Part shown: positions 6,299 through 28,887 of the stretch, piece by piece
Layout of the letters: each line of letters opens with the position of its first letter
Numbering within the stretch: position 1 is the stretch's first letter
Source of the DNA: Candidatus Aquidulcis sp.
GTDB lineage: Bacteria; Chloroflexota; Anaerolineae; UBA4142
Direction of reading: 5' to 3'
DNA length: 59,910 nucleotides
Assembly: GCA_020723345.1 (NCBI GenBank)
Contig: DYJA01000025.1
Location: 16,484-76,393 of the forward strand
Notes under the pieces: model-generated
What the model was told of the DNA's origin: nothing
Database searches by the model: none
The model's input: the letters and a program-made list of their open reading frames with translations, nothing else
Translations under genes and position numbers: made by a program

Positions 6299-7159
6299 AT
6301 GACTGAACACACCAAACCTGCCGCGCCGCGCGTCGTCGTCGTGATGCCGGCGTACAACGCGGCAAAAACCATCGAGCGCACCTACGCCGATATTCCCGCC
6401 GGAGTCGTCCATCAAGTTATTCTCGTCGACGATGTGAGCCAAGACGAGACCGTCGAAATCGCGCGACAACTTGGGATCGAAGTTGTCGTCCACGTGCAGA
6501 ATCGCGGCTACGGCGGCAATCAGAAAACGTGCTACTTGCGCGCGCTCAGTACCGACGCCGACATCGTCGTGATGCTCCATCCCGATTATCAGTACGACTC
6601 GCGCCTCATTCCCGAATTGATTCGCCCGATCCAGGACGCGCGCGCCGATCTCGTCCTGGGTTCGCGCTTTCTGAACAGCGGGACGCTCGCGGGCGGAATG
6701 CCGCTGTACAAATTCATCGCCAACCGTTTTCTCACGATCACGGAAAACTTGGTGCTGCGCCAGCATCTCTCCGAATGTCACACCGGTTTTCGCGCGTACA
6801 GCCGCCGCCTGTTGGAGACGCTACCTTTCATTCTCAATTCCGACGATTTCGTTTTCGATTCGCAAATCATCGTGCAGACCGTCGCGTTCGGGTTCAAGAT
6901 TGCCGAGATCGCCGTGCCGACGCGGTATTTCAAAGAAGCGTCGTCGGTGAATTTTCAGCGCAGCGTCGTGTACGGCTTGGCAACGCTGCGCGCGCTCGCC
7001 GCGTACATTTTGGATCGCACCAACGTTCGACCCAGCCCACTTTTCCGCAAAACCTTACCGCAAATTATCAGCCGCTATCATCGCCAACGCTTGCTGCGAC
7101 TCACGCCGACGAGTGACGCCGAACCCGTGTCGCCGTACCCGATCACGCTGGAATTTTAG
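6299..7159 (+). CDS. Family 2 glycosyltransferase
   Basis: A 286-residue GT-A fold enzyme. [16 protein letters not shown] opens the nucleotide-binding part, [11 protein letters not shown] holds the first acidic patch and [11 protein letters not shown] the DxD-like site (here HPDYQYD, as in dolichyl-phosphate mannose synthase relatives). There is no C-terminal membrane pair, so it is soluble or peripheral. It likely moves a sugar from a nucleotide donor to a polyprenyl phosphate or glycan. The ATG at 6299 follows the previous stop at 6 nt, and the membrane glycosyltransferase starts 3 nt downstream, suggesting that the two supply and use a lipid-linked sugar. Confidence 0.88.
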
Positions 7160-7162
7160 GAT

Positions 7163-9355
7163 GTGGTCGTAGTGGGCGCTTTAGCGCGCTGCAAGCGCGC
7201 ACTACCAGCCAAAATATTTTTGCCGGGACTCATCGCCGCGTTCATCGCGCTGGGCGCGTATTACAGTTTCACCACACCACTCTTCGAATCGCCCGACGAG
7301 GTGTGGCATTACGCGTACATTCGCGAAATCGCGACGCGGCGCGGTTTCCCGGTGATGCAAGCCGGAGTCGCGCAGCCCTGGGCGCAAGAAGGGACGCAAG
7401 CGCCGCTGTACTATTTGCTCGGCGCGCCGCTCGTCGCCTGGATCAATCCCGCCGATTTGGACGCGCTGCCCGCGTTGAATCCGTTCGCGCGCATCGGCGA
7501 ACCGCAAGCCGCGACGAACGACAATCGCAACGCGTTTCTGCACTTGCCCGACGAAAATACTCCCTGGCGCGGGACCGCGCTCGCCGCGCATCTTTTACGA
7601 TTGTACTCGGTCGCGCTCGGCGCGCTCACCGTCGCGATGACCTTCGCGCTCGCGCGCGAAGTATTTCCAGCGTCGCGCGCGGTCGCGCCGCTCGCCGCGG
7701 CGTTCGCCGCATTCCTGCCGCAATTTCTGTTCATCGGCAGTTCGATTAACAACGACAATCTCGCCACGATATTGGCGACGGCGCTGGTGTGGCAACTCGC
7801 GCGGACATTGCGGCGCGGCATCACGCCGCGGCGCGCGCTGATTCTCGGCGCGCTGGCGGGCGGCGCGCTGTTGACCAAGTTCAATTTGGTGACGCTCGTC
7901 CCGCTCGCGCTGCTTGTGATCTTTGTCGCCGCTGTACCCAAGCGCGCGTGGCGCGCTGCGTTCGTCGGTGTAATCATTTTCATTTCCGTCATCGCGTTGA
8001 TCGCGGGCTGGTGGTACGCGCGGAATTTTTCGCTCTACGGCGATCCATCCGGCTTGTCGCTCATTATCAACATGATTGGCGAGCGCGCCGCGCCGATGAA
8101 TCTGGCGCGCTGGTTTCTCGCCGAAAACGAGGGCTTGCGATTTTCGACTTGGGGCGTGTTCGGCTGGATGAACATTCTTGCCGCGCCCGCGTTTTACTGG
8201 TTCTTTGATCTGCTCGCGCTGGCTGGACTCGCGGGAATGATCGTGGTTGGGCGGCAGTTGAAACTGCGCCAACAAAGTCACGAAACCGACCTTCGTCGGT
8301 TGACTCAGCCCGCGCAGGCGGGCTTTGTGAACTTGTTGCTGCGATTTCAATCGCTCGCGCTCCTCGCGCTCTGGTGCGCGATCACGTTTGCCGCACTCGT
8401 GTACTACAACCGCGCGCTGCCCGCCGCGCAGGGACGTTTGCTTTTCCCGGCGCTCGCGGCGTTCGCCGTGTTGTGGGCACGCGGCATCGTCGCGCTCATT
8501 CCGACGCGCGCGATCATAATGCTTGGCGCGATCCAATTCGGCGTCGCCGCGCTGACACCCGCGCTGTTCATCGCGCCGGCGTACATGCCGACAAGCGCGA
8601 ACGAGGTACCATCTGACGCGACGCACGTGGATCACGCGACGCTTCTCGCCGTGCGCGTGAACCGCGCCGAAACGCAGCCGGGCGACGCGCTCGACATCAC
8701 GATCTATTCGCGCGTTTCGGATTTGCAAGCGGCGCGCCGCGCGATTTTCGTCCACGTCATCAACTCTGCTGACATCATCGTCGCGCAACGCGACAGCGCG
8801 ATTGCGTCGGGCAACTGGAGCGGGTTGACGTACCCGGCGATGATCGCGGATTCGTTGCGTGTGGAAATTCCGATCACCGCGTCCGCGCCGGACGATTGGC
8901 GCGTCGTCGTCGGGACGTACGATCTGGAATCGCGCGTACGCGTCGGCGAACCGATCACGCTTGCGCGATTGCCCGCGCGCGCGAACACCGCCGCATGGCA
9001 ATTCGATTTCGACGGACGCGCGACTCTGCTCCGCGCGGAAATCGCGTCGCAAGCCGTCGCGCGCGGCGACGCGCTGCGCGTCGTTTTGCGGTGGAGCGCC
9101 GCGCCGCAAAACTATCGCGTTTTTGTTCACGCGCTCGGCGACGCGGAGCGCATTTGGGCGGACGCCGACGCCGCGCTCGCGCGCGAAATGGAATTTACTT
9201 TGCGCTTTGCGCCGGACACGCCGCCCGGCGTTTATCCGCTCGAACTCGGCGTGTATCCGGTCGGCGGAGATCGCGTGCCGGTGTTTGACGCGCGCGGTCA
9301 ACTGATCGGCGACCGAATGTTTTTGGGGCCGATCCGCGTGGTGACGAGTGATTAG
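7163..9355 (+). CDS. GT39-like membrane glycosyltransferase with C-terminal beta domains
   Basis: A 730-residue integral membrane protein. The first membrane segment is followed by PLFESPDEVWHY (about residues 39-50), the acidic first-loop motif of PMT/ArnT-like GT-C enzymes that use polyprenyl-phosphate sugars. Roughly ten more membrane segments follow to about residue 480. After that come two extracytoplasmic beta-rich stretches (about 490-600 and 610-730), each with a QPGDALDI or VARGDALRV-like start. The GTG start at 7163 lies in a GTAGT palindromic element that encodes the first 14 or so residues, so the natural start may be farther in. It is paired with the GT2 gene. Confidence 0.82.
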   Translation: MVVVGALARCKRALPAKIFLPGLIAAFIALGAYYSFTTPLFESPDEVWHYAYIREIATRRGFPVMQAGVAQPWAQEGTQAPLYYLLGAPLVAWINPADLDALPALNPFARIGEPQAATNDNRNAFLHLPDENTPWRGTALAAHLLRLYSVALGALTVAMTFALAREVFPASRAVAPLAAAFAAFLPQFLFIGSSINNDNLATILATALVWQLARTLRRGITPRRALILGALAGGALLTKFNLVTLVPLALLVIFVAAVPKRAWRAAFVGVIIFISVIALIAGWWYARNFSLYGDPSGLSLIINMIGERAAPMNLARWFLAENEGLRFSTWGVFGWMNILAAPAFYWFFDLLALAGLAGMIVVGRQLKLRQQSHETDLRRLTQPAQAGFVNLLLRFQSLALLALWCAITFAALVYYNRALPAAQGRLLFPALAAFAVLWARGIVALIPTRAIIMLGAIQFGVAALTPALFIAPAYMPTSANEVPSDATHVDHATLLAVRVNRAETQPGDALDITIYSRVSDLQAARRAIFVHVINSADIIVAQRDSAIASGNWSGLTYPAMIADSLRVEIPITASAPDDWRVVVGTYDLESRVRVGEPITLARLPARANTAAWQFDFDGRATLLRAEIASQAVARGDALRVVLRWSAAPQNYRVFVHALGDAERIWADADAALAREMEFTLRFAPDTPPGVYPLELGVYPVGGDRVPVFDARGQLIGDRMFLGPIRVVTSD
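7169..7205. repeat. GTAGT...ACTAC palindromic element, overlapping a gene start
   Basis: Outer arms GTAGTG and CACTAC enclose two GC-rich stem-loops (GCGCTTTAGCGC and a GCGC...GCGC stem). This copy lies inside the first codons of the GT39-like gene. Confidence 0.7.
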
Positions 9356-18858: not shown

Positions 18859-18875
18859 TATATGCACTGCATATA
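18859..18875. promoter_or_regulatory. Palindromic operator upstream of the AOR promoter
   Basis: A perfect palindrome, TATATGCA-C-TGCATATA, ends one base before the -35 box of the AOR promoter, so a bound protein would be centred near -43, a classical activator site. A near-identical site overlaps the promoter of the regulator gene at 22942-22958. Confidence 0.7.
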
Positions 18876-18904
18876 TTGACTCTTGTCGTCCGTTCCCGTA
18901 CAAT
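18876..18904 (+). promoter_or_regulatory. Candidate AOR promoter
   Basis: TTGACT (18876-18881), a 17-nt spacer and TACAAT (18899-18904). The expected leader is about 100 nt and contains a GCCCAG/CTGGGC hairpin before the GGAGGG ribosome site. Confidence 0.65.
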
Positions 18905-19012
18905 ATTTCGCAAAACGAGTCAACCAACTCGACTTGACCGCACGTGACTCAGATAAACCAACCCGCCCAGCCATTGATGCCTGGGCACATTTCGTTCAAA
19001 GGAGGGAAATGT

Positions 19013-20776
19013 ATGTGGTTTTTGCGAGTTAACATGACGGACCGTACCGCCAAGTTGGAGGAGGTCCCCGACCAGTACAAAAACCTGGGCGGGCGCGGCC
19101 TGACCTCGTCGCTCGTGGCGGCTGAAGTTCCCCCGCTCTGCCATCCCCTCGGGCCAAACAACAAGCTCGTTTTCGCGAGCGGCATCATCACCGGCACGCC
19201 CGCCAACACCTCGGCGCGCGTTTCGGTCGGCGGCAAATCGCCGTTGACGGGCGGCATCAAGGAGGCGAACGCCGGCAGTTCGTGGGCGCAGGATTTACCT
19301 TCGCTCGGCATCAAGGCGTTGGTCGTCGAAGGACAGCCGAAAGAAAAAGGCAAGTTCTGGGGTATCCACATCGCTTGGGATGCCGCCGCCGGGAAACCCA
19401 AAGTCGAATTCTTCGACGCGACCGAGTACGCCGGCAAGGATCTGTACGATGTCTTTCCTAAAGTGTACGAACGCTTCGGCGACAAGATTTCGATTGCCGG
19501 ATGCGGCGTCGCCGGAGAGTTCAAGTACGGCAACTCAGGCATCGTGTTCAACGACATGTCCAAACGCCCCAGTCGTTATGCCGGACGCGGCGGCTTGGGC
19601 GCGGTGCTGGGAAGCAAAGGATTGAAGTGGATCGTTCTCGACGAGAAAGGTTCTCCCGGCGTTCCGATCGCGGACAAGGCGCTTTTTGAACAAGGGCGCA
19701 AGAAGATGAACGACGCGCTCCGCACGCACGACATCACCAAGCCGAAAGGTGGTTTGAACACGTACGGCACCGCCGTGCTCATCAACATTATGAACGAAGC
19801 CGGTGGGTTGCCGACGAAGAATTTCTCCAGCGGACGCTTTGACCAAGCCGCGCAGATCGCCGGCGAAGCGATCTTCGAAGGCAACAAGACGCGCCTGGGC
19901 AAAGAATTGTACAACCACGCGTGCAGTCCGGGCTGCATCATCCAATGCTCGAACACGTGGCACGACAAGAACGGCAAGGAGATCGCGTCGTGCGTCGAGT
20001 ACGAATCGGATTGGTCGCTCGGCGCGAACTGCGGCATCGGCGATCTCGATGCGATCGGCGAGATGGTCAAGTTGTGCAACGCGTACGGCTTGGACACGAT
20101 TGAGACCGGCGCGACCCTGGGCGTCGCGATGGAAGCCGGAGTCGTGCCGTTCGGCGATGCGAAGGGCGCGATCAACCTGGTTCACGAAATGGGCAAGGGC
20201 ACGCCGATGGGTCGCATCCTGGGTGCGGGAACCGGCATGGCGGGTCAAGTGCTCGGCATGACGCGCATCCCGGCGGTCAAAGGACAAGGGATGCCAGCGT
20301 ACGAACCGCGCGCGGTCAAAGGCATCGGCATCACGTACGCGACGAGCACGATGGGCGCGGATCACACCGCGGGCTACACCATCGCGCCGGAAATCCTGGG
20401 TGTCAGCGGCAAACAGGATCCGCTTTCGCCGGAAGGCAAAGCCGCGCTGAGCCGCGCGTTCCAGGCGACGACCGCGTTCATCGATTCGTCGGGACACTGC
20501 TTGTTCATCGCGTTCGCGATTCTCGATATTGCGAGCGGGTTCGAAGGGATGGTCGAAGAGTGCAACGGCGTGCTTGGCACGAATTGGACGGGCGACGACA
20601 TCGTCAAACTGGGCGGTGAGATTTTGAAGAAGGAGCGCGCGTTCAATCAAGCCGCCGGTATCACGGACAAACATGATCGTGTGCCAGAGTTCATGAAGAC
20701 CGAACCACTCCCACCCCACAACCAAGTCTTCGACATTTCCGACGCCGCGCTCGATTCCGTGTACGGCGAATTGTAG
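19013..20776 (+). CDS. aor: Tungsten-containing aldehyde:ferredoxin oxidoreductase
   Basis: A 587-residue AOR-family enzyme that oxidises aldehydes to acids with ferredoxin, using a tungsten bis-pterin and one [4Fe-4S] cluster. The N-terminal part has GGRGLTSSLVA and GKSPLTGGIKEANAGSSWA, the pterin-contacting region. Cluster ligands appear as C304-x3-C308-x3-C312 (ACSPGCIIQC) plus C496 (SSGHC); the first gap is three residues, not the two I expect from the archaeal enzyme. I chose the ATG at 19013 (GGAGGG 6 nt upstream) over an upstream start. The maturase, tungstate importer and regulator downstream strongly support tungsten. Confidence 0.93.
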   Translation: MWFLRVNMTDRTAKLEEVPDQYKNLGGRGLTSSLVAAEVPPLCHPLGPNNKLVFASGIITGTPANTSARVSVGGKSPLTGGIKEANAGSSWAQDLPSLGIKALVVEGQPKEKGKFWGIHIAWDAAAGKPKVEFFDATEYAGKDLYDVFPKVYERFGDKISIAGCGVAGEFKYGNSGIVFNDMSKRPSRYAGRGGLGAVLGSKGLKWIVLDEKGSPGVPIADKALFEQGRKKMNDALRTHDITKPKGGLNTYGTAVLINIMNEAGGLPTKNFSSGRFDQAAQIAGEAIFEGNKTRLGKELYNHACSPGCIIQCSNTWHDKNGKEIASCVEYESDWSLGANCGIGDLDAIGEMVKLCNAYGLDTIETGATLGVAMEAGVVPFGDAKGAINLVHEMGKGTPMGRILGAGTGMAGQVLGMTRIPAVKGQGMPAYEPRAVKGIGITYATSTMGADHTAGYTIAPEILGVSGKQDPLSPEGKAALSRAFQATTAFIDSSGHCLFIAFAILDIASGFEGMVEECNGVLGTNWTGDDIVKLGGEILKKERAFNQAAGITDKHDRVPEFMKTEPLPPHNQVFDISDAALDSVYGEL

Positions 20777-20801
20777 AATAGACCTTATCGGAAATAGCTT
20801 T

Positions 20802-20876
20802 GGACACAGATAAACACAGATGAACACAGATAGAAAACAAGAAAATCGGTGTAAATCAGCGTTCATCAGTGTCCCA
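20802..20876. repeat. Tandem-inverted array, ACACAGATGA type
   Basis: Three 10-nt units (ACACAGATAA, ACACAGATGA, ACACAGATAG) precede right-hand units that read, in reverse complement, ACACTGATGA, ACGCTGATTT and ACACCGAT. The outer ends are GGACAC and GTGTCC. Confidence 0.85.
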
Positions 20877-20922
20877 ATAATGATATTGGCTTAGTCCCGA
20901 TAAAGTCCAATGTGCATCTCGT

Positions 20923-20949
20923 AGGGGCGGGGTTACCCCGCCCCTTTTT
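20923..20949 (+). terminator. Terminator after AOR
   Basis: AGGGGCGGGG, a 3-nt loop, CCCCGCCCCT and a run of T form a rho-independent terminator about 150 nt after the AOR stop. It would separate AOR transcription from the maturase unless read through. Confidence 0.75.
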
Positions 20950-20950
20950 C

Positions 20951-21010
20951 TTGACGGTTCATCCTTGCGACGGTTCATCTTGAGCGGAGCGCAGCGAAGC
21001 CGAAGGAAAC
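20951..21010. repeat. GAGCGGAGCGCAGCGAAG element (CTTCGACT family)
   Basis: The stretch contains a direct GACGGTTCATC pair and then TTGAGCGGAGCGCAGCGAAGCCGAAGGA, a copy of the CCTGAGCG...CGAAGG palindromic family. It lies just upstream of the radical SAM gene. Confidence 0.7.
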
Positions 21011-21042
21011 CTTTGCAAGGTTGGCGGAGCATCTTTTTTCCA

Positions 21043-22230
21043 ATGGCAATTGTCAAATCCGATTCCGAAGGTCGGCTGGTTTTGGATGACGCGTTTCTCA
21101 AGCGGCGGCACATCCCGCCCGCCGCCGAATACTGGCTCGCCGAACGCGATGGCGATCTGATTCTGCATCCGCGCCGGCCCGACGCGCGCAAACTGTACAT
21201 CGAAGCGACGACCGGCTGCAACTTGCAATGCCGCACCTGCATTCGCAACGTCTGGAGCGATCCGATCGCGCTCATGTCGCGCGAAACGTTCGACAAAATT
21301 CTGGCGGGACTTGGCGCGCTGCCGCAACTCGAACGCGTGATCTTTACGAGTTTCGGCGAGCCGCTCACGCATCCGCGCATCCTCGAAATGATCGAGGCGG
21401 TTCGCCGCCACGATCTCGCGGTGACGGTCGGCACGAATGGTTTGCTGCTCAAGCCCGAAATGTCGCGCGAACTTGTCCGGCTTGGCGTTGATCGTCTCGT
21501 CGTTTCAGTCGACGGCGCGAAACCGGAGACGTACGCCGACATTCGCGGCGCGCAACTTTCGACCGTGCTCGATAACATTCGCCAGTTCAACGAAGCGAAA
21601 CGCGAACTGAGTTCGCTCACGCCCGCGCTCGGCATCGAGTTTGTCGTTTTGAAAAGCAACATCGGCGAACTGGGCGACCTGACCGGACTCGCGTCACATT
21701 TGAACGCCGCGCGCGTCCTCGTCAGCAATGTCTTGCCGTACACCGCCGACATGCGCGATGAAATTCTGTACGGCTATGAACCGCGCCAGCCGTTCAAAGC
21801 CGGGGGCTGGCCCGTCAAAGCAGACGCGTGGGTAATGTGGGGCACGCTCGAACTGCCGCGCATGCACTGGGGCGCGGAGCGGCGCTGTCGTTTCGTGCAG
21901 GATCGTTCGATGGTCGTCGGCTGGGACGGCGGCGTGTCGCCGTGCTACGCGCTCTCGCACAACTATTCGTACTTTGCGATTGACGGTCGCCAAAAACAAG
22001 TCGCGCGCTATGTGCTCGGCGATGTCGGCGCGCAGTCGCTCGCGGAAATTTGGATGACGGAAAACTATGTGCGCTTTCGCAGCGAGGTGCGCGGCTTTCA
22101 CTTTCCGTCGTGCCCCGATTGCGATCTGCGCGAAACGTGCGATCTGCGCGGACGCAACGAGGGCTGCTGGGGCTGGAATCCGTCGTGCGCCGATTGTTTG
22201 TGGGCGCAAGACATTGTGCGGTGTCCATGA
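21043..22230 (+). CDS. Radical SAM maturase of tungsten oxidoreductase
   Basis: A 395-residue radical SAM protein. The SAM-cluster motif is C59-x3-C63-x2-C66 (TTGCNLQCRTC). A C-terminal Cys-rich tail (CPDCDLRETC...CADC...C) looks like a SPASM/twitch auxiliary cluster domain. The layout and place beside AOR fit the 'tungsten cofactor oxidoreductase radical SAM maturase' family (TIGR04317 type). The first 45 residues (SEGRLVLDDAFLKRRHIPPA...) resemble an AbrB-like swapped hairpin. The ATG at 21043 is chosen because farther upstream codons lie in a repeat. Its stop overlaps the MoaD-like start by 4 nt. Confidence 0.9.
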   Translation: MAIVKSDSEGRLVLDDAFLKRRHIPPAAEYWLAERDGDLILHPRRPDARKLYIEATTGCNLQCRTCIRNVWSDPIALMSRETFDKILAGLGALPQLERVIFTSFGEPLTHPRILEMIEAVRRHDLAVTVGTNGLLLKPEMSRELVRLGVDRLVVSVDGAKPETYADIRGAQLSTVLDNIRQFNEAKRELSSLTPALGIEFVVLKSNIGELGDLTGLASHLNAARVLVSNVLPYTADMRDEILYGYEPRQPFKAGGWPVKADAWVMWGTLELPRMHWGAERRCRFVQDRSMVVGWDGGVSPCYALSHNYSYFAIDGRQKQVARYVLGDVGAQSLAEIWMTENYVRFRSEVRGFHFPSCPDCDLRETCDLRGRNEGCWGWNPSCADCLWAQDIVRCP

Positions 22231-22466
22231 TCGCGCGTGTGCGCTTGTTCGCGAACCTTGTGCAGTATTGTCCCGGCGCAAAAGTGGGACAACCTTTCGA
22301 CGTTGAACTCGCGGCGGGCGGTACGCTCGCAGACTTGATCGCGCATCTGAAACTGCCGCGCGATCAGGTCAAAGTGATTTTCGTCAATGGGATTGGCGCG
22401 CCCCCAGATCACGTCATTCAGCCCGGCGACGAAATTGGAATTTTTTCGCCAATTGGAGGCGGCTAA
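22227..22466 (+). CDS. MoaD/ThiS-like sulfur carrier
   Basis: A 79-residue beta-grasp protein ending SPIGGG, the C-terminal Gly-Gly used as a thiocarboxylate in MoaD-type sulfur carriers. The body has VRLFANLVQYCPG and a GDEIGIFSPIGG end, as in the small subunit of molybdopterin synthase. Its ATG overlaps the radical SAM stop (ATGA), so translation is coupled. It likely serves the pterin cofactor of AOR. The ORF is shorter than the minimum in many gene callers and could be missed. Confidence 0.88.
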   Translation: MIARVRLFANLVQYCPGAKVGQPFDVELAAGGTLADLIAHLKLPRDQVKVIFVNGIGAPPDHVIQPGDEIGIFSPIGGG

Positions 22467-22467
22467 C

Positions 22468-22845
22468 GTGGGAAACATCGTCATTGATACGTGGCTCTAC
22501 GGTGAGTTGGCAAAGTACGGTGGCGATCCGCAGCAAACAGTTTTCGCTAACCCCAAAGTTGAATTGCCCGAAGGCAGCACAATCGGCGACTTGCTGAATT
22601 TTCTGCATCTGCCAACCGAACAGCGCGGCATCACTTTTATCAATGGGGACTTGTCGGCGATGCCCGGCTTGCAACCCGATCTGACGCATCGCTTGAAAGA
22701 TGGCGACCGCGTCGCGTTCTTTCATTTGAAAAGCATGTGGCCCTTCCAGTACCGTCACGGCGTTGCGATGATCCCGGAAATGTCCAACGCGATGTTGGAC
22801 GGACGCGATCAAGGGTTGCATCATTCGTACTCGGGGAAGGAGTAG
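22468..22845 (+). CDS. MoaD-like protein with C-terminal extension, no Gly-Gly
   Basis: A 125-residue protein. About residues 1-88 follow the MoaD/ThiS plan (LPEGSTIGDLLNFLHLP, GITFINGDL, LKDGDRVAFF), but the chain does not end in Gly-Gly. It continues with MWPFQYRHGVAMIPEMSNAM and ends HHSYSGKE. It cannot be a standard sulfur donor unless it is cleaved; it may be a structural or carrier partner of AOR or the maturase. GTG start at 22468 with GGAGG upstream; 1 nt after the previous stop. Confidence 0.8.
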   Translation: MGNIVIDTWLYGELAKYGGDPQQTVFANPKVELPEGSTIGDLLNFLHLPTEQRGITFINGDLSAMPGLQPDLTHRLKDGDRVAFFHLKSMWPFQYRHGVAMIPEMSNAMLDGRDQGLHHSYSGKE

Positions 22846-22872
22846 CGTCGCCGCTCGTCGCGTTGTCTGCGG

Positions 22873-22927
22873 AAAAGTCAAGATCGCGATCGGCGCGCAA
22901 GCGCGGATCGCGATCTTGACTTTTTTT
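22873..22927. terminator. Strong rho-independent terminator
   Basis: GTCAAGATCGCGATC and its exact complement (15 bp) flank a GC-rich loop, with AAAA before and seven T after. It ends the maturase-MoaD operon. The distal arm ends in TTGACT, which also reads as the -35 of the next promoter. Confidence 0.9.
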
Positions 22928-22944
22928 CATCTTCGCGATAGTAT
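22916..22944 (+). promoter_or_regulatory. Candidate promoter of the padR-like/tup operon
   Basis: TTGACT (22916-22921, inside the terminator arm), a 17-nt spacer and TAGTAT (22939-22944). The -10 overlaps the operator at 22942. Confidence 0.5.
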
Positions 22945-22958
22945 ATGTATTGCATATA
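22942..22958. promoter_or_regulatory. Operator over the regulator promoter
   Basis: TATATGTA-T-TGCATATA differs from the AOR operator at one half-site position and the centre. It overlaps the -10 box and start point, a repressor position, which suggests autoregulation. Confidence 0.65.
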
Positions 22959-23002
22959 GTTCGTAGTGCGCGCTTGAGCGCGCTCAAGCGCGCACTACGA
23001 AC
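22959..23002. repeat. GTAGT...ACTAC element, perfect 20-bp hairpin
   Basis: A 20-nt arm starting GTTCGTAGTGCGCGC, a 4-nt CGCG loop and the exact complement. It starts immediately after the operator and ends 13 nt before the regulator ATG, so it would form a leader hairpin. Confidence 0.85.
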
Positions 23003-23015
23003 CTGAAAGGTCACG

Positions 23016-24254
23016 ATGTCTCCTCAGCATCCTCTCCTCGGTTTGCTCGTGCGCGGCGAAAAGCACGGCTATGAATTAAAGCGCATCGTCGACGACGAGT
23101 TCGCGCCGTACTGGCGGATTGACTTTGCGCAGTTGTATCGCTCGCTGGCGAAGATGACGCGCAACGGCTGGGTCAAGGCGCGCATCGAACGCGGCACCGA
23201 CGGACCCGAACGCAAAGTGTACACGCTCACCGCGCGCGGGCGCGCCGAATTCGACCAGTGGCTGGCGGAACCGGCGCAAGACCGCGACGAATTCTTCGTC
23301 AAGGTCCGGCTTGCCGCCGATTGCGACGCGTCGATCGCGCACTTGGTCGAGCCACACCGCCGCGCGCTGGAGGACGAACGCGTCGCGCGCACGCGCCGCC
23401 AGCGCGCCGCGCAAGACGCGGGTGACGCCGGACAATTGCTCGTCGCGCACGCCGCGCTGCGCGAAACACAAGCCGCGCTGTCCGCGCTCGATTTGTACGC
23501 CGCGGTTGCGCCCTCCTTCGACTCCGCTGCGCTCCGCTCAGGACGCGCGCTGCGCGAAAAACACCTTGCCGCGCCGGTCATCATCGGCAGCGACGATCCG
23601 CTCCTCGCGCGACTCGCGCAACTCGCGCACACTTCCACGCAAGCGGTCGGCAGCATCGGCGGCTTGCTCGCACTCGCGCAGCATCAGGCGAACGTCGCGG
23701 GGATTCATCTGCTCGATTCCGAGACGGGTGAGTACAACGTGCCTTTCGTCAAACATCTTGCGCCGGAAGAAGACATCGTGCTCGTCAATCTCGCGTTTCG
23801 CGAAAACGGTTTGCTGATCGCGCGCGGTAATCCGAAAAGTATTCGCAGCGTGCGCGCCATCGCGCGGCGCGACGTTCGATTCATCAACCGCCAGCGCGGC
23901 GCGGGCACACGTTTGCTCGTCTACTCGAAATTGCGCCAGATCGGCATTAACCCGCACACTATACCCGACTGGGATCGCGTTGCGAACACGCATGACGCGG
24001 TCGCGGGCGCGATTGCGGCGGGCGCGGCGGATGTCGGTCCCGGCTTGCGCGCGGTTGCCGCCGAATGGGATCTCGATTTCATTCCGCTCGGCGAAGAGCG
24101 GTACGATTTAGCGATTGCGCGCGCCGATTACGAATCGCCGGAACTGCGCGCGTTGATCGACGCGCTGCACGGCGACGCGTTTCGTCAGCAAGCCGCTGCG
24201 CTCAAGGGCTACGATCTCGCGCGCAGCGGACAAGTCGTCGCACACATTCGATAA
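23016..24254 (+). CDS. PadR-type HTH fused to oxyanion-binding (PBP-like) sensor
   Basis: A 412-residue one-component regulator. Residues 1-95 form a PadR-like winged helix (LLVRGEKHGYELKRIV, then FAQLYRSLAKMTRNGWV and a wing at RKVYTLTARG), followed by a helical region to about 160. Residues 187-405 form a type 2 periplasmic-binding-like domain with FINRQRGAGTRLLVYS, the signature of sensor domains fused to ModE or MoeA in molybdate/tungstate regulation. The linker (about 165-178, PSFDSAALRSGRA) is encoded by a CTTCGACT-type repeat. With tupABC next and shared operators, it is probably a tungstate-responsive regulator. The ligand is inferred. Confidence 0.85.
   Translation: MSPQHPLLGLLVRGEKHGYELKRIVDDEFAPYWRIDFAQLYRSLAKMTRNGWVKARIERGTDGPERKVYTLTARGRAEFDQWLAEPAQDRDEFFVKVRLAADCDASIAHLVEPHRRALEDERVARTRRQRAAQDAGDAGQLLVAHAALRETQAALSALDLYAAVAPSFDSAALRSGRALREKHLAAPVIIGSDDPLLARLAQLAHTSTQAVGSIGGLLALAQHQANVAGIHLLDSETGEYNVPFVKHLAPEEDIVLVNLAFRENGLLIARGNPKSIRSVRAIARRDVRFINRQRGAGTRLLVYSKLRQIGINPHTIPDWDRVANTHDAVAGAIAAGAADVGPGLRAVAAEWDLDFIPLGEERYDLAIARADYESPELRALIDALHGDAFRQQAAALKGYDLARSGQVVAHIR
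23511..23555. repeat. CTTCGACT...CTCAGG element in frame at a domain junction
   Basis: CCTTCGACTCCGCTGCGC then TCCGCTCAGGACG lies inside the regulator gene, exactly at the linker between HTH and sensor domains, with the reading frame kept. Confidence 0.7.
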
Positions 24255-24261
24255 TTCTTTT

Positions 24262-24298
24262 GTAGTGCGCGATTTATCGCGCTTTAGCGCGTACTACG
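24262..24298. repeat. GTAGT...ACTAC palindromic element
   Basis: Outer arms TAGTGCGCG and CGCGTACTAC enclose two small stems. It fills the spacer between the regulator gene and tupA. Confidence 0.75.
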
Positions 24299-24322
24299 GA
24301 CCCTTCTCAAGGAGGAGCAAAA

Positions 24323-25276
24323 GTGAAACGCTTTGGATTTTTTGTCGTTGCTCTTGCGTTTGTCTTGTTTGTCGGCGCGTGCGCGCCCGCGCCGACGCCA
24401 GCGCCGCCGACCACCGCGCCCGCGGCGAAACCAACTGTCGCGCCAACGACCGCGCCCGCACCGGCTCCGACGCCAACGTCCATTCGGGCGGCGCTGACTT
24501 CGGGATGCCACTTGATTCTTTCGACGACGACGAGCACGGCGGATTCCGGCTTGCTCGCGTTTATTCTGCCCGACTTTGAAAAGAAATCCAATTGCAAGGT
24601 GGACGTGATCGCCGTTGGCACCGGGCAGGCGATTCAGATCGGGCAGAAGGGCGACGCGGATGTTTTACTCGTGCACGACCGCGCGCGCGAAGATCAGTTC
24701 GTCAAGGACGGCAACACGAAAGAACGCTTCGACGTGATGTACAATGATTTCATCGTCGTGGGTCCCAAAAACGATCCGGCGAAAATCACCGGCGTGACGA
24801 TGGGCGCGGACGCGCTCAAGGCGATTGCCAACGCGAAAGCGGCGTTTATGAGTCGCGGCGACGGCAGCGGCACGCACGCGGCGGAGATGCGGATTTGGGC
24901 GAGCGTCAACATTTCGCCGACGAAAGATTTGCAGTGGTACAATTCGCTCGGGCAAGGAATGGGCGAGACGCTGCTTTCGTCGAACGAGAAAGGCGCGTAC
25001 ACCATCGCCGATCGCGGCACCTGGCTTTCGATGACAGGCAAATTGCCGAACCTGGTGGTCCTCGTCGGCGGTAACGACATTTCTCAGAACAAAGACAAAG
25101 CGTTATTCAATCCGTACGGCTTGATGGCGGTCAACCCGGATAAGTTCAAGGGCATCAACGCCGAAAAGGCGAACGAGTTCGTCAAATGGATGCTGTCGGT
25201 CGAAACGCAAAAAATGATCGGCAGTTACAAAGACAAGACCGGGCAAATTTTGTTTTACCCCCACGCGAAGCAGTAG
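24323..25276 (+). CDS. tupA: Tungstate-binding lipoprotein TupA
   Basis: A 317-residue binding protein. The signal peptide ends in a lipobox (VGAC, Cys about 20), followed by an Ala-Pro-Thr-rich tether. The mature part begins LILSTTTSTADSGLL, the TupA/WtpA-like TTTS oxyanion loop, and continues with VGTGQAIQIGQKGDADVLLVH and SRGDGSGTHAAE, typical of TupA. It captures tungstate outside the membrane for TupBC. GGAGGAG precedes the ATG. It is downstream of the sensor-regulator and 7 nt before tupB. Confidence 0.94.
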   Translation: MKRFGFFVVALAFVLFVGACAPAPTPAPPTTAPAAKPTVAPTTAPAPAPTPTSIRAALTSGCHLILSTTTSTADSGLLAFILPDFEKKSNCKVDVIAVGTGQAIQIGQKGDADVLLVHDRAREDQFVKDGNTKERFDVMYNDFIVVGPKNDPAKITGVTMGADALKAIANAKAAFMSRGDGSGTHAAEMRIWASVNISPTKDLQWYNSLGQGMGETLLSSNEKGAYTIADRGTWLSMTGKLPNLVVLVGGNDISQNKDKALFNPYGLMAVNPDKFKGINAEKANEFVKWMLSVETQKMIGSYKDKTGQILFYPHAKQ

Positions 25277-25283
25277 GGGCGGG

Positions 25284-25973
25284 ATGGACGAACTTTCTCG
25301 CGGGTTTTTCCAAGCACTTGAATTGATCTTTTCCGCTGATCCGGCGCTGTACGAAATCATTTTTCTTTCGCTGCGCGTGACCGGTCTGGCGTTGTTGTTC
25401 AGCACGCTGATTGGCGTGCCGGTCGGCGCGACGCTCGGCTTGTCGCGCGTGCGTGCGCGCGGCTTTATCACCGTGCTGCTGTACACCGGCATGGGCTTGC
25501 CGCCGGTCGTCGTCGGCTTGTTCGTGTACCTGATGCTATCGCGCTCGGGACCGTTTGGCGCGCTGGGCTGGTTGTTCACGCCGAGCGCGATGGTCACCGC
25601 ACAGATCATTATCGCGTTTCCGCTCGTCTCCGGTTTGACGATGGCGGCGGTGCAGGGCGTCGACCCGGCGCTGCGCGTGCAGGTGCGTTCGCTCGGCGCG
25701 ACGCGCGCGCAAGAGGTGTGGGCGGTGCTGCGCGAAGCCCGCCTCGGCGTCGTCGCCGCGATTGTCGCCGCGTTTGGCGGCATCATTTCCGAAGTGGGCG
25801 CGGTCATGCTCGTCGGCGGCAACATCGAAGGCAAGACGCGCGTGCTGACGACGGCGATTGTGCTGAACACGCGCACCGGCGAGTTTTCGCTGGCGATTGC
25901 GCTCGGCGTCATTTTGCTTGGGCTCGCGTTCGTCGCGAATGTGGCGATGTTGCGATTACAAGGTAAAGAGTGA
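25284..25973 (+). CDS. tupB: Tungstate ABC transporter permease TupB
   Basis: A 229-residue membrane protein with about five segments. The EAA-type cytoplasmic loop is at RSLGATRAQEVWAVLREARLGVVAA (about residues 133-157), which contacts the ATPase. GMGLPPVVVGLFVYLMLSRSGPFG is characteristic of TupB permeases. It forms the channel for tungstate. The start is 7 nt after tupA and the stop 6 nt before tupC, so the three are one operon. Confidence 0.93.
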   Translation: MDELSRGFFQALELIFSADPALYEIIFLSLRVTGLALLFSTLIGVPVGATLGLSRVRARGFITVLLYTGMGLPPVVVGLFVYLMLSRSGPFGALGWLFTPSAMVTAQIIIAFPLVSGLTMAAVQGVDPALRVQVRSLGATRAQEVWAVLREARLGVVAAIVAAFGGIISEVGAVMLVGGNIEGKTRVLTTAIVLNTRTGEFSLAIALGVILLGLAFVANVAMLRLQGKE

Positions 25974-25979
25974 AGCGGG

Positions 25980-26708
25980 ATGCGTGATCTGAAACCGATT
26001 TACGAAACTGAGAACCTGAAAAAAGAATACGCGGGACGGATCGTGGTGGATGTTGAACGGCTAGCGATTGGCGCCGGGGAGATGTTCGCGCTGGTGGGAC
26101 CCAGCGGCGCAGGCAAGTCCACGCTGTTGCGTCTCCTCAACTTTTTGGAAACGCCGACCCAGGGCGAAATCATTTATCAAGGTCAGAGCGTCAACGGCAA
26201 TTTGTCGATTGAGACGCGTCGTCAGGTGACGACAGTGTTTCAGCGTCCGGTGTTGTTGCGCGCAAGCGTGCGCGATAACGTCGCGTACGGCTTGGGCTTG
26301 CGCGGACAACGCGCGGACGGTCGCGTGGAGGAAATGCTGACGCGCGTTGGGTTGGCGGCGCTGGCGGATGCGCCCGCGCAAAAACTTTCGGGCGGCGAGA
26401 TGCAGCGCGTCGCGCTGGCGCGCGCGCTCGTGATCGAACCGCGCGTACTGTTGCTCGACGAACCGACCGCGAACCTTGATCCGTACAACGTCGGCTTGAT
26501 CGAAGAGATCGTGCGCGAGCAAAATCGCGCGCGCGGCACGACCATCGTGCTGGTCACGCACAATGTTTTTCAGGCGAAGCGGCTCGCGCAGCGTGTCGGC
26601 TTGATGTTGAGTGGGCGTGTGGTCGAGATCGGCGACGCGCAGCAATTTTTCGACGCGGCGCAAGATCCGCGCACGACCGCGTTCGTGCGCGGCGAAATGG
26701 TGTACTGA
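25980..26708 (+). CDS. tupC: Tungstate ABC transporter ATPase TupC
   Basis: A 242-residue ABC ATPase with Walker A GPSGAGKST (about 40-48), the Q-loop region VFQRPVLL, signature LSGGEMQRVALARAL and Walker B RVLLLDEPTANLD, followed by the switch His in VTHN. It drives TupB. There is no C-terminal oxyanion-sensing domain as in ModC, in keeping with the Tup type. The context (tupA, tupB, sensor-regulator, AOR) supports tungstate as the substrate. Confidence 0.93.
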   Translation: MRDLKPIYETENLKKEYAGRIVVDVERLAIGAGEMFALVGPSGAGKSTLLRLLNFLETPTQGEIIYQGQSVNGNLSIETRRQVTTVFQRPVLLRASVRDNVAYGLGLRGQRADGRVEEMLTRVGLAALADAPAQKLSGGEMQRVALARALVIEPRVLLLDEPTANLDPYNVGLIEEIVREQNRARGTTIVLVTHNVFQAKRLAQRVGLMLSGRVVEIGDAQQFFDAAQDPRTTAFVRGEMVY

Positions 26709-26791
26709 AGAACCACCCATTGACGCCATGCGCGCATGCGCCAATAATCAGCGCACGACGATGGAACGAGCAAACGAAAGGAGACGCACTC

Positions 26792-27052
26792 ATGGCGAAG
26801 ATTTTTTATCGAGAGCGCAACAAGATTGGCGCGGGCGATCAACAACCGCGCTTTGCGGTCGTCGGCGTGCAGGGGACCGACCTCACGTTTTTCCAGCAGC
26901 ATTTGCGTAAAGGCGAATTGGATGCGATCGCGCAAAGCACCGGCGCGGAATTGGTCGAACTGCCGCGCGGCAAAGGCGAGCATCGGGGCGAGTCCGGTGG
27001 CGGCGGCAAACGCAAGCAGAGTCGAAAGAGAACCGCCCTCCGCCGCAAGTAA
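26792..27052 (+). CDS. Small basic-tailed protein of unknown function
   Basis: An 86-residue protein with AAAGGAGA 8 nt before the ATG at 26792. The body (PRFAVVGVQGTDLTFFQQHLRKGELDAIAQSTGAELVEL) looks folded. The last 25 residues are Gly, Lys and Arg-rich (GGGGKRKQSRKRTALRRK), as in small nucleic-acid-binding tails. It lies 83 nt after tupC on the same strand and may be the last gene of that operon or independent. I do not recognise the family. Confidence 0.65.
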   Translation: MAKIFYRERNKIGAGDQQPRFAVVGVQGTDLTFFQQHLRKGELDAIAQSTGAELVELPRGKGEHRGESGGGGKRKQSRKRTALRRK

Positions 27053-27137
27053 TCTTCGCTTGCGTCGGGACGTTCAATTGAACGTCTCTACAAATTACAC
27101 GATCTTCGAGACGGTAGCATTTGCGCCGATTCACCAA

Positions 27138-27193
27138 CCGCAGAGACGCAGAGAGTACTGATTTTTTCTCTGCGTCTCTGCGTTCTCTGCGGT
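27138..27193. repeat. Tandem-inverted array, GCAGAGAC type
   Basis: ACCGCAGAGACGCAGAGAG is followed, after a TACTGATTTTT loop, by CTCTGCGTCTCTGCGTTCTCTGCGGT. Confidence 0.85.
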
Positions 27194-27250
27194 CAAATTG
27201 GAACGATTCATGGTTGTCATGCCACAGTGTCCGATCTTCGGTAAATTGCC

Positions 27251-27308
27251 CAGAAACGCACAGAACCACACAGAATTGCACCGAAGCAATTGCTGTGTGG
27301 TTCTGCGG
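27251..27308. repeat. Tandem-inverted array, CACAGAACC type
   Basis: CAGAAACGCACAGAACCACACAG on the left pairs with CTGTGTGGTTCTGCGG on the right; an AATTGC...GCAATT pair closes the loop. Confidence 0.85.
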
Positions 27309-27322
27309 CTAACCTAATCTCG

Positions 27323-28153
27323 TCACCCCGCTTTGAAAATTCGTGTGCCGATGTGCTCGCCTTGCAGCGCGCGCGTGATGTTGCCGCGCTCGAGTCCGTT
27401 CACGATGAACACTTCGCGCAGCGAGCGCGCGTCGCGCAAGACCTCCAACATACTGCGCTCGACCGCCAGGTCATTCAAATCGCGCGCGAGCAATTCGTTG
27501 ACCTCGATCTCCGCGATGAATTTTGCTGCGGGTTCTTTTTTCGGGTCGGCCGAATAGAGTCCCTGCTCATCCTTGATGAGAACGCAGCGTTGCGCGCCCA
27601 TCACCTCGGCGAGCAAAAACGCGCCCACATCCGTACGGTGCGGCGGAATGCGTCCCAACGCGGGCGGAGTTTCGAACAAACCGTACGGCGGCATCGCGTG
27701 CGTCACGGGCAGTCCACCCATCGCAAAATAGTTCGGCAGTTTGTGCAAGTCGTCGTGTCCGATCTTGACGCCGCCGTGCTGACTCAACAAGATCGCGAGC
27801 ATGAGCGCGTTTTGTTCGCTGATGCTCGAGCCCAGTTTCGCCAGGACGCCCGTCGGCATTCCCAGGTCGGTCGCGATCGCGTACGCGTGGCGCGCGCGCG
27901 TGCCGCCTCCGGTCGTGATCAAAATCTTGCGCGATCGACGCGCCTCCACCAATTCGTCAAGGATCGGTAAGACCGCGGCGCGCCCTCGATCGATAATGCT
28001 TTGCCCGCCGATTTTGACGACATTGAGATCCGGCATCAGCCGATAGATCGGTTGACCGTCCGTGCTGGCAAGCAACGTCTTGTCCATGAGCGACTCACCC
28101 ATCAAGCGCGATTCGATGTGGAGCCGCCCGCTTGCATCACGTTTCAGACTCAT
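27323..28153 (-). CDS. Molybdenum/tungsten storage protein-like (MosA/MosB family)
   Basis: A 276-residue protein of the amino acid kinase (UMP kinase) fold. It resembles MosA/MosB of the Azotobacter molybdenum storage protein throughout: LMPDLNVVKIGGQSIIDRG and LPILDEL near the start, TGGGTRARHAYAIATDLG, RIPPHRTDVGAFLLAE with LYSADP, and VNGLERGNITRALQGEHIG near the end. That protein packs polyoxomolybdate or tungstate clusters in a hexameric cage using ATP. In this tungsten island it is plausibly a tungstate store. It lies 56 nt behind the CBS-ACT gene on the same strand. A nucleotide kinase role is the alternative. Confidence 0.8.
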   Translation of the reverse strand: MSLKRDASGRLHIESRLMGESLMDKTLLASTDGQPIYRLMPDLNVVKIGGQSIIDRGRAAVLPILDELVEARRSRKILITTGGGTRARHAYAIATDLGMPTGVLAKLGSSISEQNALMLAILLSQHGGVKIGHDDLHKLPNYFAMGGLPVTHAMPPYGLFETPPALGRIPPHRTDVGAFLLAEVMGAQRCVLIKDEQGLYSADPKKEPAAKFIAEIEVNELLARDLNDLAVERSMLEVLRDARSLREVFIVNGLERGNITRALQGEHIGTRIFKAG

Positions 28154-28209
28154 TGTTGTCGGTAAGTCCTGCGAGGCGCGCGTGCGAAAACCTCGAAGGT
28201 CTCGCCCTG

Positions 28210-28887
28210 TTACGACGGAATCAACCGCGGTTCGTACTTGGCGCCAACTTCGCGCACGTCCACAACTTGGACGCCGACTTTTTCGAGCGCCTTGACCAAG
28301 TCATCGCGCTTGACGCCTAGCACTTTCATCGTGATCTCGCCTTGCTTGGATTCTTTGCCGACGATGGTCACCAGACTGCGAATGTCCCCGCCCAACTGCG
28401 CGACCTGGGTCGATAGTTTGGCGAGTTCGCCTTTCATATCCGGCACGCGCACCATCACGCGCAGGCATTGCGGCTCGCCGCCCAGCGCGAGCGCCATCGC
28501 GCGAAAAATGTCGGTTTCGGTGATGATTCCGACGAGTTGATTGCCGCGCACGATTGGGAGACAGCCGATCTTGTGTTCGACCATGACACACGCCGCTTCC
28601 TCGATGGGCCAGTCCTCTTCGACGGTGATCACGCGTTTGGTCATAATGTCCTTGATTTTCAGTTTGGACAAGAGGTACGGAATTTCGTAGACGCTCAAAG
28701 TCGTTGCGGGAGAAGGCGCGGCTTTGAGCAAATCCTTTTCGACGACGATGCCGACCAACGCGCCTTTGTCGTCCACGACGGGCAGGCGGCGCACTTTCTT
28801 TTCGCGCAGCAATTCCATCGCATCGCCGAAGGACGCGTCGGGATGCGTGACGATGGGATTCGCAGACATTCTTTCTCGAACGAGCAT
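28210..28887 (-). CDS. CBS-pair protein with C-terminal ACT-like domain
   Basis: A 225-residue protein. Two CBS domains occupy about residues 1-135 (VRERMSANPIVTHPDAS... and IKDIMTKRVITVEEDWP...). The last 80 residues look like an ACT-like ligand-binding domain (LRVMVRVPDMKGELAKLSTQVAQLGGDIRSLV), an arrangement seen in AcuB-type proteins. CBS pairs sense adenine nucleotides. GGAGGT precedes the ATG. It is the first gene of a two-gene leftward unit with the storage-like protein, so it may link nucleotide state to metal storage. Divergent from hsp20. Confidence 0.85.
   Translation of the reverse strand: MLVRERMSANPIVTHPDASFGDAMELLREKKVRRLPVVDDKGALVGIVVEKDLLKAAPSPATTLSVYEIPYLLSKLKIKDIMTKRVITVEEDWPIEEAACVMVEHKIGCLPIVRGNQLVGIITETDIFRAMALALGGEPQCLRVMVRVPDMKGELAKLSTQVAQLGGDIRSLVTIVGKESKQGEITMKVLGVKRDDLVKALEKVGVQVVDVREVGAKYEPRLIPS

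Follow-up and report, generated by a model that had tools for sequence, protein, structure and literature searches.

The locus described here raises the question of how a bacterium that uses tungsten senses the metal and holds it in the cell. The locus lies in a stretch of 59,910 nucleotides from Candidatus Aquidulcis sp. (contig DYJA01000025.1), called here the window. An earlier note, made from the sequence alone, had described positions 18,859 to 28,887 as a complete tungsten island. Using domain and family profile scores, we checked the contents of this 10-kb gene cluster at their coordinates. It turned out that the AOR, the TIGR04317 maturase, two MoaD-like proteins, the PadR-PBP fusion, TupABC, a homologue of the storage protein MoSto and a CBS-ACT protein are all present where claimed. 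On the + strand the order is AOR, radical SAM/SPASM, two ThiS/MoaD-type genes, the PadR-PBP fusion and three Tup-type ABC genes; the MoSto homologue and the CBS-CBS-ACT protein are encoded on the - strand. This gene list had overlooked one gene, which lies between tupC and the MoSto gene (26792-27052, +) and encodes a protein of 86 residues. The novelty of the locus is its single-gene MoSto branch, the small partner and the operator, rather than the gene list. We consider it probable, though well short of certain, that this is a tungsten-homeostasis island assembled from three modules, which would combine import, use, sensing and storage in a protein cage aided by the 86-residue protein.

A single-gene branch of MoSto relatives and its small partner

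The putative storage part of the island consists of two genes:
27323..28153, - strand: single-copy MoSto-like protein with the AA-kinase fold, 276 residues, convergent with the 86-residue gene
26792..27052, + strand: 86-residue protein of an undescribed family, 83 bp after tupC, with a conserved 60-residue core and a basic tail

The MoSto-like sequence scored 268 bits with MosB, about 179 with MosA and 50 with the best UMP kinase. Its model (predicted local distance difference test, pLDDT, 91) gave Z scores of 33-35 to MoSto chains versus at most 24.6 to UMP kinases. Both its sequence and its fold resemble MoSto clearly more than any metabolite kinase. Its identity as a UMP kinase was rejected: it reached 32.5 bits against a pyrH_bact cut-off of 243.9, and the genome encodes a separate PyrH (293.5 bits). 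A search of the window's own genome returned one match and no second MoSto paralogue. The other AA kinases found there are of the PyrH, ArgB and LysW types, together with IPPK and carbamate and aspartate kinases.

Among about 85,000 species genomes, a scan picked out 415 matching stretches encoding MoSto relatives. A tree was built from the best 80 loci, with references added. It places the window protein in a clade (99/95) whose 76 members are single genes except at one two-copy locus. The paired, adjacent genes of Myxococcota, Nitrospirota, Altiarchaeota, Acidimicrobiia, Azospirillum and Azotobacter lie outside this clade; their deeper branching is unsure because of several long branches. 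The label "MosA/MosB-like" in the earlier note stands as to homology and has to be narrowed to a single-subunit relative without the cluster ligands of the alpha subunit. The papers searched contain no description of MoSto in Chloroflexi. The MoSto loci of three contigs titled Acidobacteria or Dehalococcoidales (L170, L175 and L176) group with the Anaerolineales type, which may reflect transfer or mis-binning.

The 86-residue protein has no sequence match in Pfam, NCBIfam or PDB. Its relatives are 66-97 residues long and share KIFVRER followed by KPRFRVVGV-G-DLK-Y--H-RK-ELE-IA--TGAE-VYL. Of the 80 MoSto loci 60 encode such a relative, usually convergent with the MoSto gene and no more than 0.7 kb away; the five loci with paired, adjacent MoSto genes have none. 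We also surveyed a sample of 396 genomes of the window's own class (Chloroflexota, including Anaerolineales). The 86-residue gene was present in 14 of the 23 genomes with MoSto and in none of the 373 others (Fisher p 4e-20; this and the later Fisher values are guides only, because related genomes are not independent). In the class of the sulfate reducer Pseudodesulfovibrio OB3, the MoSto and 86-residue profiles matched an identical set of 51 out of 199 genomes. Genome G521 has both genes on one contig with 1.1 Mb between them, so linkage alone does not account for their shared retention.

The model of the 86-residue protein (pLDDT 72) shows a small alpha/beta domain followed by a basic tail of low confidence, and a fold search with it gave nothing better than E 0.27 and was hence uninformative. 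No plasmid record encodes the family. Two candidate homologues were dropped: a weak match with two stops in G048, which was removed by the profile search, and the hypothetical gene beside mosA in Azospirillum, which on checking is not a homologue. Our guess is that the protein may act as a loader, a gate or a cluster-stabilising partner, which would fit a basic protein that depends on the MoSto gene.

Another protein, similar to the TiaS kinase domain (TCKD) and to methanogenesis marker 11 (PF22641, weak), is encoded near the single-copy MoSto gene at 37 loci. It has about 230-260 residues and an IGxDDTD N-terminus, and is found among the L165-L244 loci (e.g., L168:11759-12460, +, and L242:11516-12325, -). 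A search that had no positive control failed to find it in the window's own genome.

Three modules, the PadR-PBP regulator and its predicted operator

The remaining features are as follows:
18859..18875, no strand: predicted palindromic operator TATATGCACTGCATATA, upstream of the AOR gene
19013..20776, + strand: AOR/WOR-type tungsten oxidoreductase, 587 residues, single subunit, AFOR_N and AFOR_C domains
21043..22230, + strand: radical SAM/SPASM maturase, TIGR04317, 395 residues, CNLQCRTC motif, 425.4 bits
22227..22466, + strand: MoaD/ThiS-like protein 1 with C-terminal GGG, overlapping the radical SAM gene by 4 bases
22468..22845, + strand: MoaD/ThiS-like protein 2, GTG start, kept in the module and, unlike protein 1, without a C-terminal Gly-Gly
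22942..22958, no strand: predicted palindromic operator TATATGTATTGCATATA, upstream of padR-pbp
23016..24254, + strand: PadR winged helix plus PBP_like domain (MoeA C-terminal type), 412 residues, probable intracellular oxyanion sensor-regulator
24323..25276, + strand: TupA-type tungstate-binding protein, ligand positions TTTS, His, Arg118, Thr and Asp kept
25284..25973, + strand: TupB-type permease
25980..26708, + strand: TupC-type ATPase
28210..28887, - strand: CBS-CBS-ACT protein, adjoining the MoSto gene here and not a conserved member

The island is the sum of three modules, each of which recurs elsewhere. For this survey of the 396 genomes, 60 stretches around the matches were read. Module 1, AOR-rSAM-MoaD-MoaD (rSAM, radical SAM), keeps its order in many Chloroflexota families, mostly without nearby Tup genes. 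Module 2, PadR-PBP-TupABC, is found in the window's own family and a few relatives; the full PadR-PBP fusion occurs in 13 genomes, the window's included, and adjoins TupABC in most relatives. Module 3 is the 86-residue gene with the MoSto gene. Modules 1 and 2 are joined in G039, of the same genus, where module 3 is absent; modules 2 and 3 are joined in G301, of the same family; and in G089 an AOR and MoaD-like genes are found no more than about 9 kb from module 3. The window locus has all three together. The co-occurrence proposed earlier is borne out in relatives for the regulator with Tup genes and for the storage-like gene with Tup genes. The CBS-ACT protein did not hold its place as an island member: it has no recurrent neighbourhood with the MoSto gene at other loci, follows none of the three modules elsewhere and was rejected as a conserved member.

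The AOR scored 180 bits with PF02730 and 268 bits with PF01314. Its presence was confirmed and its start was not: the true start is the ATG at 19013 after AAAGGAGGG, and the GTG at 18944 was rejected. Its Fe-S motif is CSPGCIIQC plus a late DSSGHC, that is, CX3CX3C plus a late Cys as the four candidate Cys of one [4Fe-4S] cluster, in contrast to CX2CX3C in solved AORs, and this arrangement is conserved in all subfamily relatives checked. The maturase passed the curated TIGR04317 (W_rSAM_matur) cut-off, with 425.4 bits versus 380. A strong terminator-like hairpin with a T-run lies at 20923-20945, inside the 266-bp gap between the AOR and radical SAM genes, so the two may be separate transcripts here.

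The regulator scored 60 bits with PadR (PF03551) and 226 bits with PBP_like, and its second domain is of the MoeA C-terminal type (PRK14498 match). The start coordinate of the earlier note, 18859, is the exact first base of a palindrome repeated at 22942. Both copies follow the pattern TATATG-N5-CATATA; with up to 3 mismatches allowed, chance would give 0.46 matches. Apart from TATATGCACTGCATATA and TATATGTATTGCATATA, the 6.3-Mb genome contains no perfect match to this pattern. The AOR-upstream palindrome is directly abutted by a sigma-70-like promoter, TTGACT-17-TACAAT (18876-18904), and the padR-pbp palindrome overlaps the -10 element of TTGACT-17-TAGTAT (22916-22944). In the 2.16 Mb of fetched loci, TATATG-N4-6-CATATA occurred at 11 sites, each on a contig with padR-pbp: nine lie at most 260 bp before that gene, one stands upstream of AOR (G039) and one is 4.3 kb off (G283). 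In the same genus as the window, a palindrome of this type is found upstream of AOR at position 10269 of L115. With a PadR domain and a palindrome at the promoter, the simplest reading is a PadR-type repressor that would regulate itself and control AOR.

At other MoSto loci the same PBP domain is fused to heads that by eye resemble GntR, ArsR and excisionase types. The domain would be an oxyanion sensor, with tungstate its likely ligand, because it is of the MoeA C-terminal type, its helix-turn-helix heads vary at MoSto loci and WtpA/WtpB are encoded in G301. The papers searched do not describe a PadR-PBP sensor. PBP_like fusions near MoSto or Tup genes, at L172:4465-5559, L197:8795-9946, L166:17272-18246, L231, L199 and L238, suggest a swappable oxyanion sensor module. 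In sulfate reducers a stand-alone PadR-type gene lies about 1 kb (about +0.95 kb) from the MoSto gene at 23 loci in the neighbour clustering, divergent from the 86-residue gene (e.g., L213, L220, L224, L225, L237 and L242). A palindromic intergenic repeat of another kind, GTAGTGCGCGCTTNAGCGCG, precedes padR-pbp (22963-22998) and tupA (24262-24297) and also occurs at 7169 and 49472, with 6 matches in the window versus 0.13 expected. A scan of the window with Rfam for Moco/Tuco (molybdenum or tungsten cofactor) or other riboswitches gave no match at gathering scores.

A proposed tungsten economy and its alternatives

MoSto-like genes are linked to tungsten by their neighbours and by co-occurrence in genomes. 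In the window TupA retains the ligands TTTS, His59, Arg118, Thr124 and Asp170 (aligned according to PMC5517513). In the flanking sequence fetched, which reached at most 10 kb to either side of the MoSto gene, Tup genes were present at 14 of 35 Chloroflexota loci, the window included, in varying orders and orientations. Two loci in a genome of 4.5 Mb would lie this close by chance in well under 1% of cases. Apparent tup-MoSto operons are seen at L185 (12-bp gap to tupC), L180 and L188, and seven proteobacterial MoSto loci have clear TupA and/or TupB matches. The order in G301 is MoSto, 86-residue gene, tupCBA, wtpBA, padR-pbp. The second tungstate transporter there, between tupA and padR-pbp (L117:7643-8842, -, and 6657-7466, -), comprises a WtpA above its cut-off and a WtpB-type protein. 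At a loose threshold, the maturase family was present in 15 of the 23 MoSto carriers versus 113 of 396 genomes overall (Fisher p 0.0002); at a strict threshold, it was present in 5 of 23, which is non-significant (p 0.09).

We propose that TupABC imports tungstate and that AOR would use the metal in a pterin-bound W site, with the radical SAM protein and the two beta-grasp proteins serving in maturation. The PadR-PBP protein may bind tungstate (or molybdate) in the cell through its PBP domain and control its own tup operon and the AOR gene through the palindromes that overlap or abut their promoters, most likely as a repressor. The MoSto-like protein, presumably a homohexameric cage, would take up surplus tungstate at the cost of ATP, and the 86-residue basic protein could help by loading or gating the cage or by stabilising the cluster. 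Use, maturation, import and a regulator are well supported. "Complete" was too strong a word, because storage and the identity of the metal are what we infer, and general cofactor genes lay outside the survey.

Several observations weigh against this proposal. In the alignment (not a structure) to Azospirillum MosA, alpha-Glu129, His156 and His140 are replaced by Gly132, Gly158 and Tyr142. In MoSto, alpha-His140 is the tungsten-binding His of the W3 cluster. The other two, alpha-Glu129 and His156, are covalent cluster ligands (numbering from PMC4504029). With these ligands gone, the storage chemistry must differ from that of MoSto or be absent; judged from its sequence, this MoSto relative need not store metal in MoSto's way. 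A nearly invariant His133 stands beside the lost Glu position, and beta-Lys42 (entry 6ris) is kept as Lys47, invariant in 23 Chloroflexota sequences. Further, no operator lies upstream of the 86-residue or MoSto gene in the window, and TupA and TupB score below the NCBIfam equivalog cut-offs (TupA 198 bits vs 400). Genome G039 (93% complete) has everything from AOR to Tup with both operators and neither the MoSto nor the 86-residue gene. Nine Chloroflexota MoSto carriers lack the 86-residue gene even by a profile search, run with no positive control, and phylogenetic relatedness inflates the Fisher p values.

There are three rival explanations. The storage-like protein may be a general, or mainly molybdate, Mo/W buffer that lies beside the importer by chance in a mixed Mo/W locus. 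MoSto binds tungsten as well as molybdenum (PMC6448029), no Tup gene is in reach of many MoSto-like loci, and a MoeA-PBP gene is found near the MoSto-like locus L185. But Tup is the commonest transporter next to these genes, joined by Wtp in G301, and the AOR and TIGR04317 maturase of the window locus are of the tungsten type, which makes this explanation unlikely, although it is the strongest of the rivals. Missing MosA ligands together with a retained AA-kinase fold, the conserved Lys47, Asp175, KDE and DPK motifs and the frequent TiaS-kinase-like neighbour at other loci would also suit a small-molecule kinase or ATPase of tungsten-cofactor metabolism, with the 86-residue protein as its regulatory subunit. 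The much closer likeness to MoSto and the separately encoded canonical PyrH leave this quite improbable.

Very little probability remains for independent modules that lie side by side with no joint function, the MoSto/86-residue pair being an unrelated insertion beside tup. The three modules are indeed apart in most genomes, and the MoSto gene is on the opposite strand, without an operator; but the modules are linked pairwise in different genomes (G039, G301 and G089), and there are several distinct tup-MoSto arrangements, some of them operon-like. Beyond the three-module tungsten island itself, we tentatively suggest, at somewhat less than even confidence, a second cage-storage class for tungsten: a single-subunit, ATP-driven MoSto relative with a hitherto undescribed protein of 66-97 residues, obligate in some lineages, beside tungstate import and tungstate-responsive PBP-domain regulators, in Chloroflexota and sulfate reducers.

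Comparison with known systems

MoSto has been regarded as an almost unique accessory of nitrogenase, a nitrogenase-related Mo store with no known homologues (PMC6448029). Here it has hundreds of relatives in Chloroflexota and sulfate reducers, and the majority of those examined are single-gene. For the holding of tungsten in cells, we found one characterised answer, the TOBE-domain protein Tub. The present locus gives a defined two-protein candidate, an operator and a candidate sensor, so that tungsten storage and sensing can be tested directly.

The locus of Brevibacillus massiliensis resembles that of the window in having a single-gene WOR beside a regulator and tupABC (PMC9424855); the portions of that paper at hand do not mention a radical SAM maturase, a MoaD pair, a storage gene or PadR-PBP. 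With TIGR04317 maturase systems the window shares a radical SAM protein above the curated cut-off and the AOR-rSAM-MoaD-MoaD order common to many Chloroflexota, whereas it adds a regulated tungstate importer and a MoSto-like gene. Tub/Mop of Eubacterium limosum has the proposed role of an intracellular tungstate store fed by TupABC (PMC11980592), as the cage does here; its fold, however, is unrelated, and neither the MoSto-like nor the 86-residue protein has a TOBE domain. With MosA/MosB of Azotobacter vinelandii (alpha3beta3) the window protein shares family and fold; it is about 50% identical to full-length MosB and retains beta-Lys42 as well as the motifs on the ATP side. In contrast to that system, the window has one gene instead of two paralogous subunit genes, its protein belongs to a separate clade without equivalents of alpha-Glu129/His140/His156, and relatives of the window type are often linked to Tup and the 86-residue partner.

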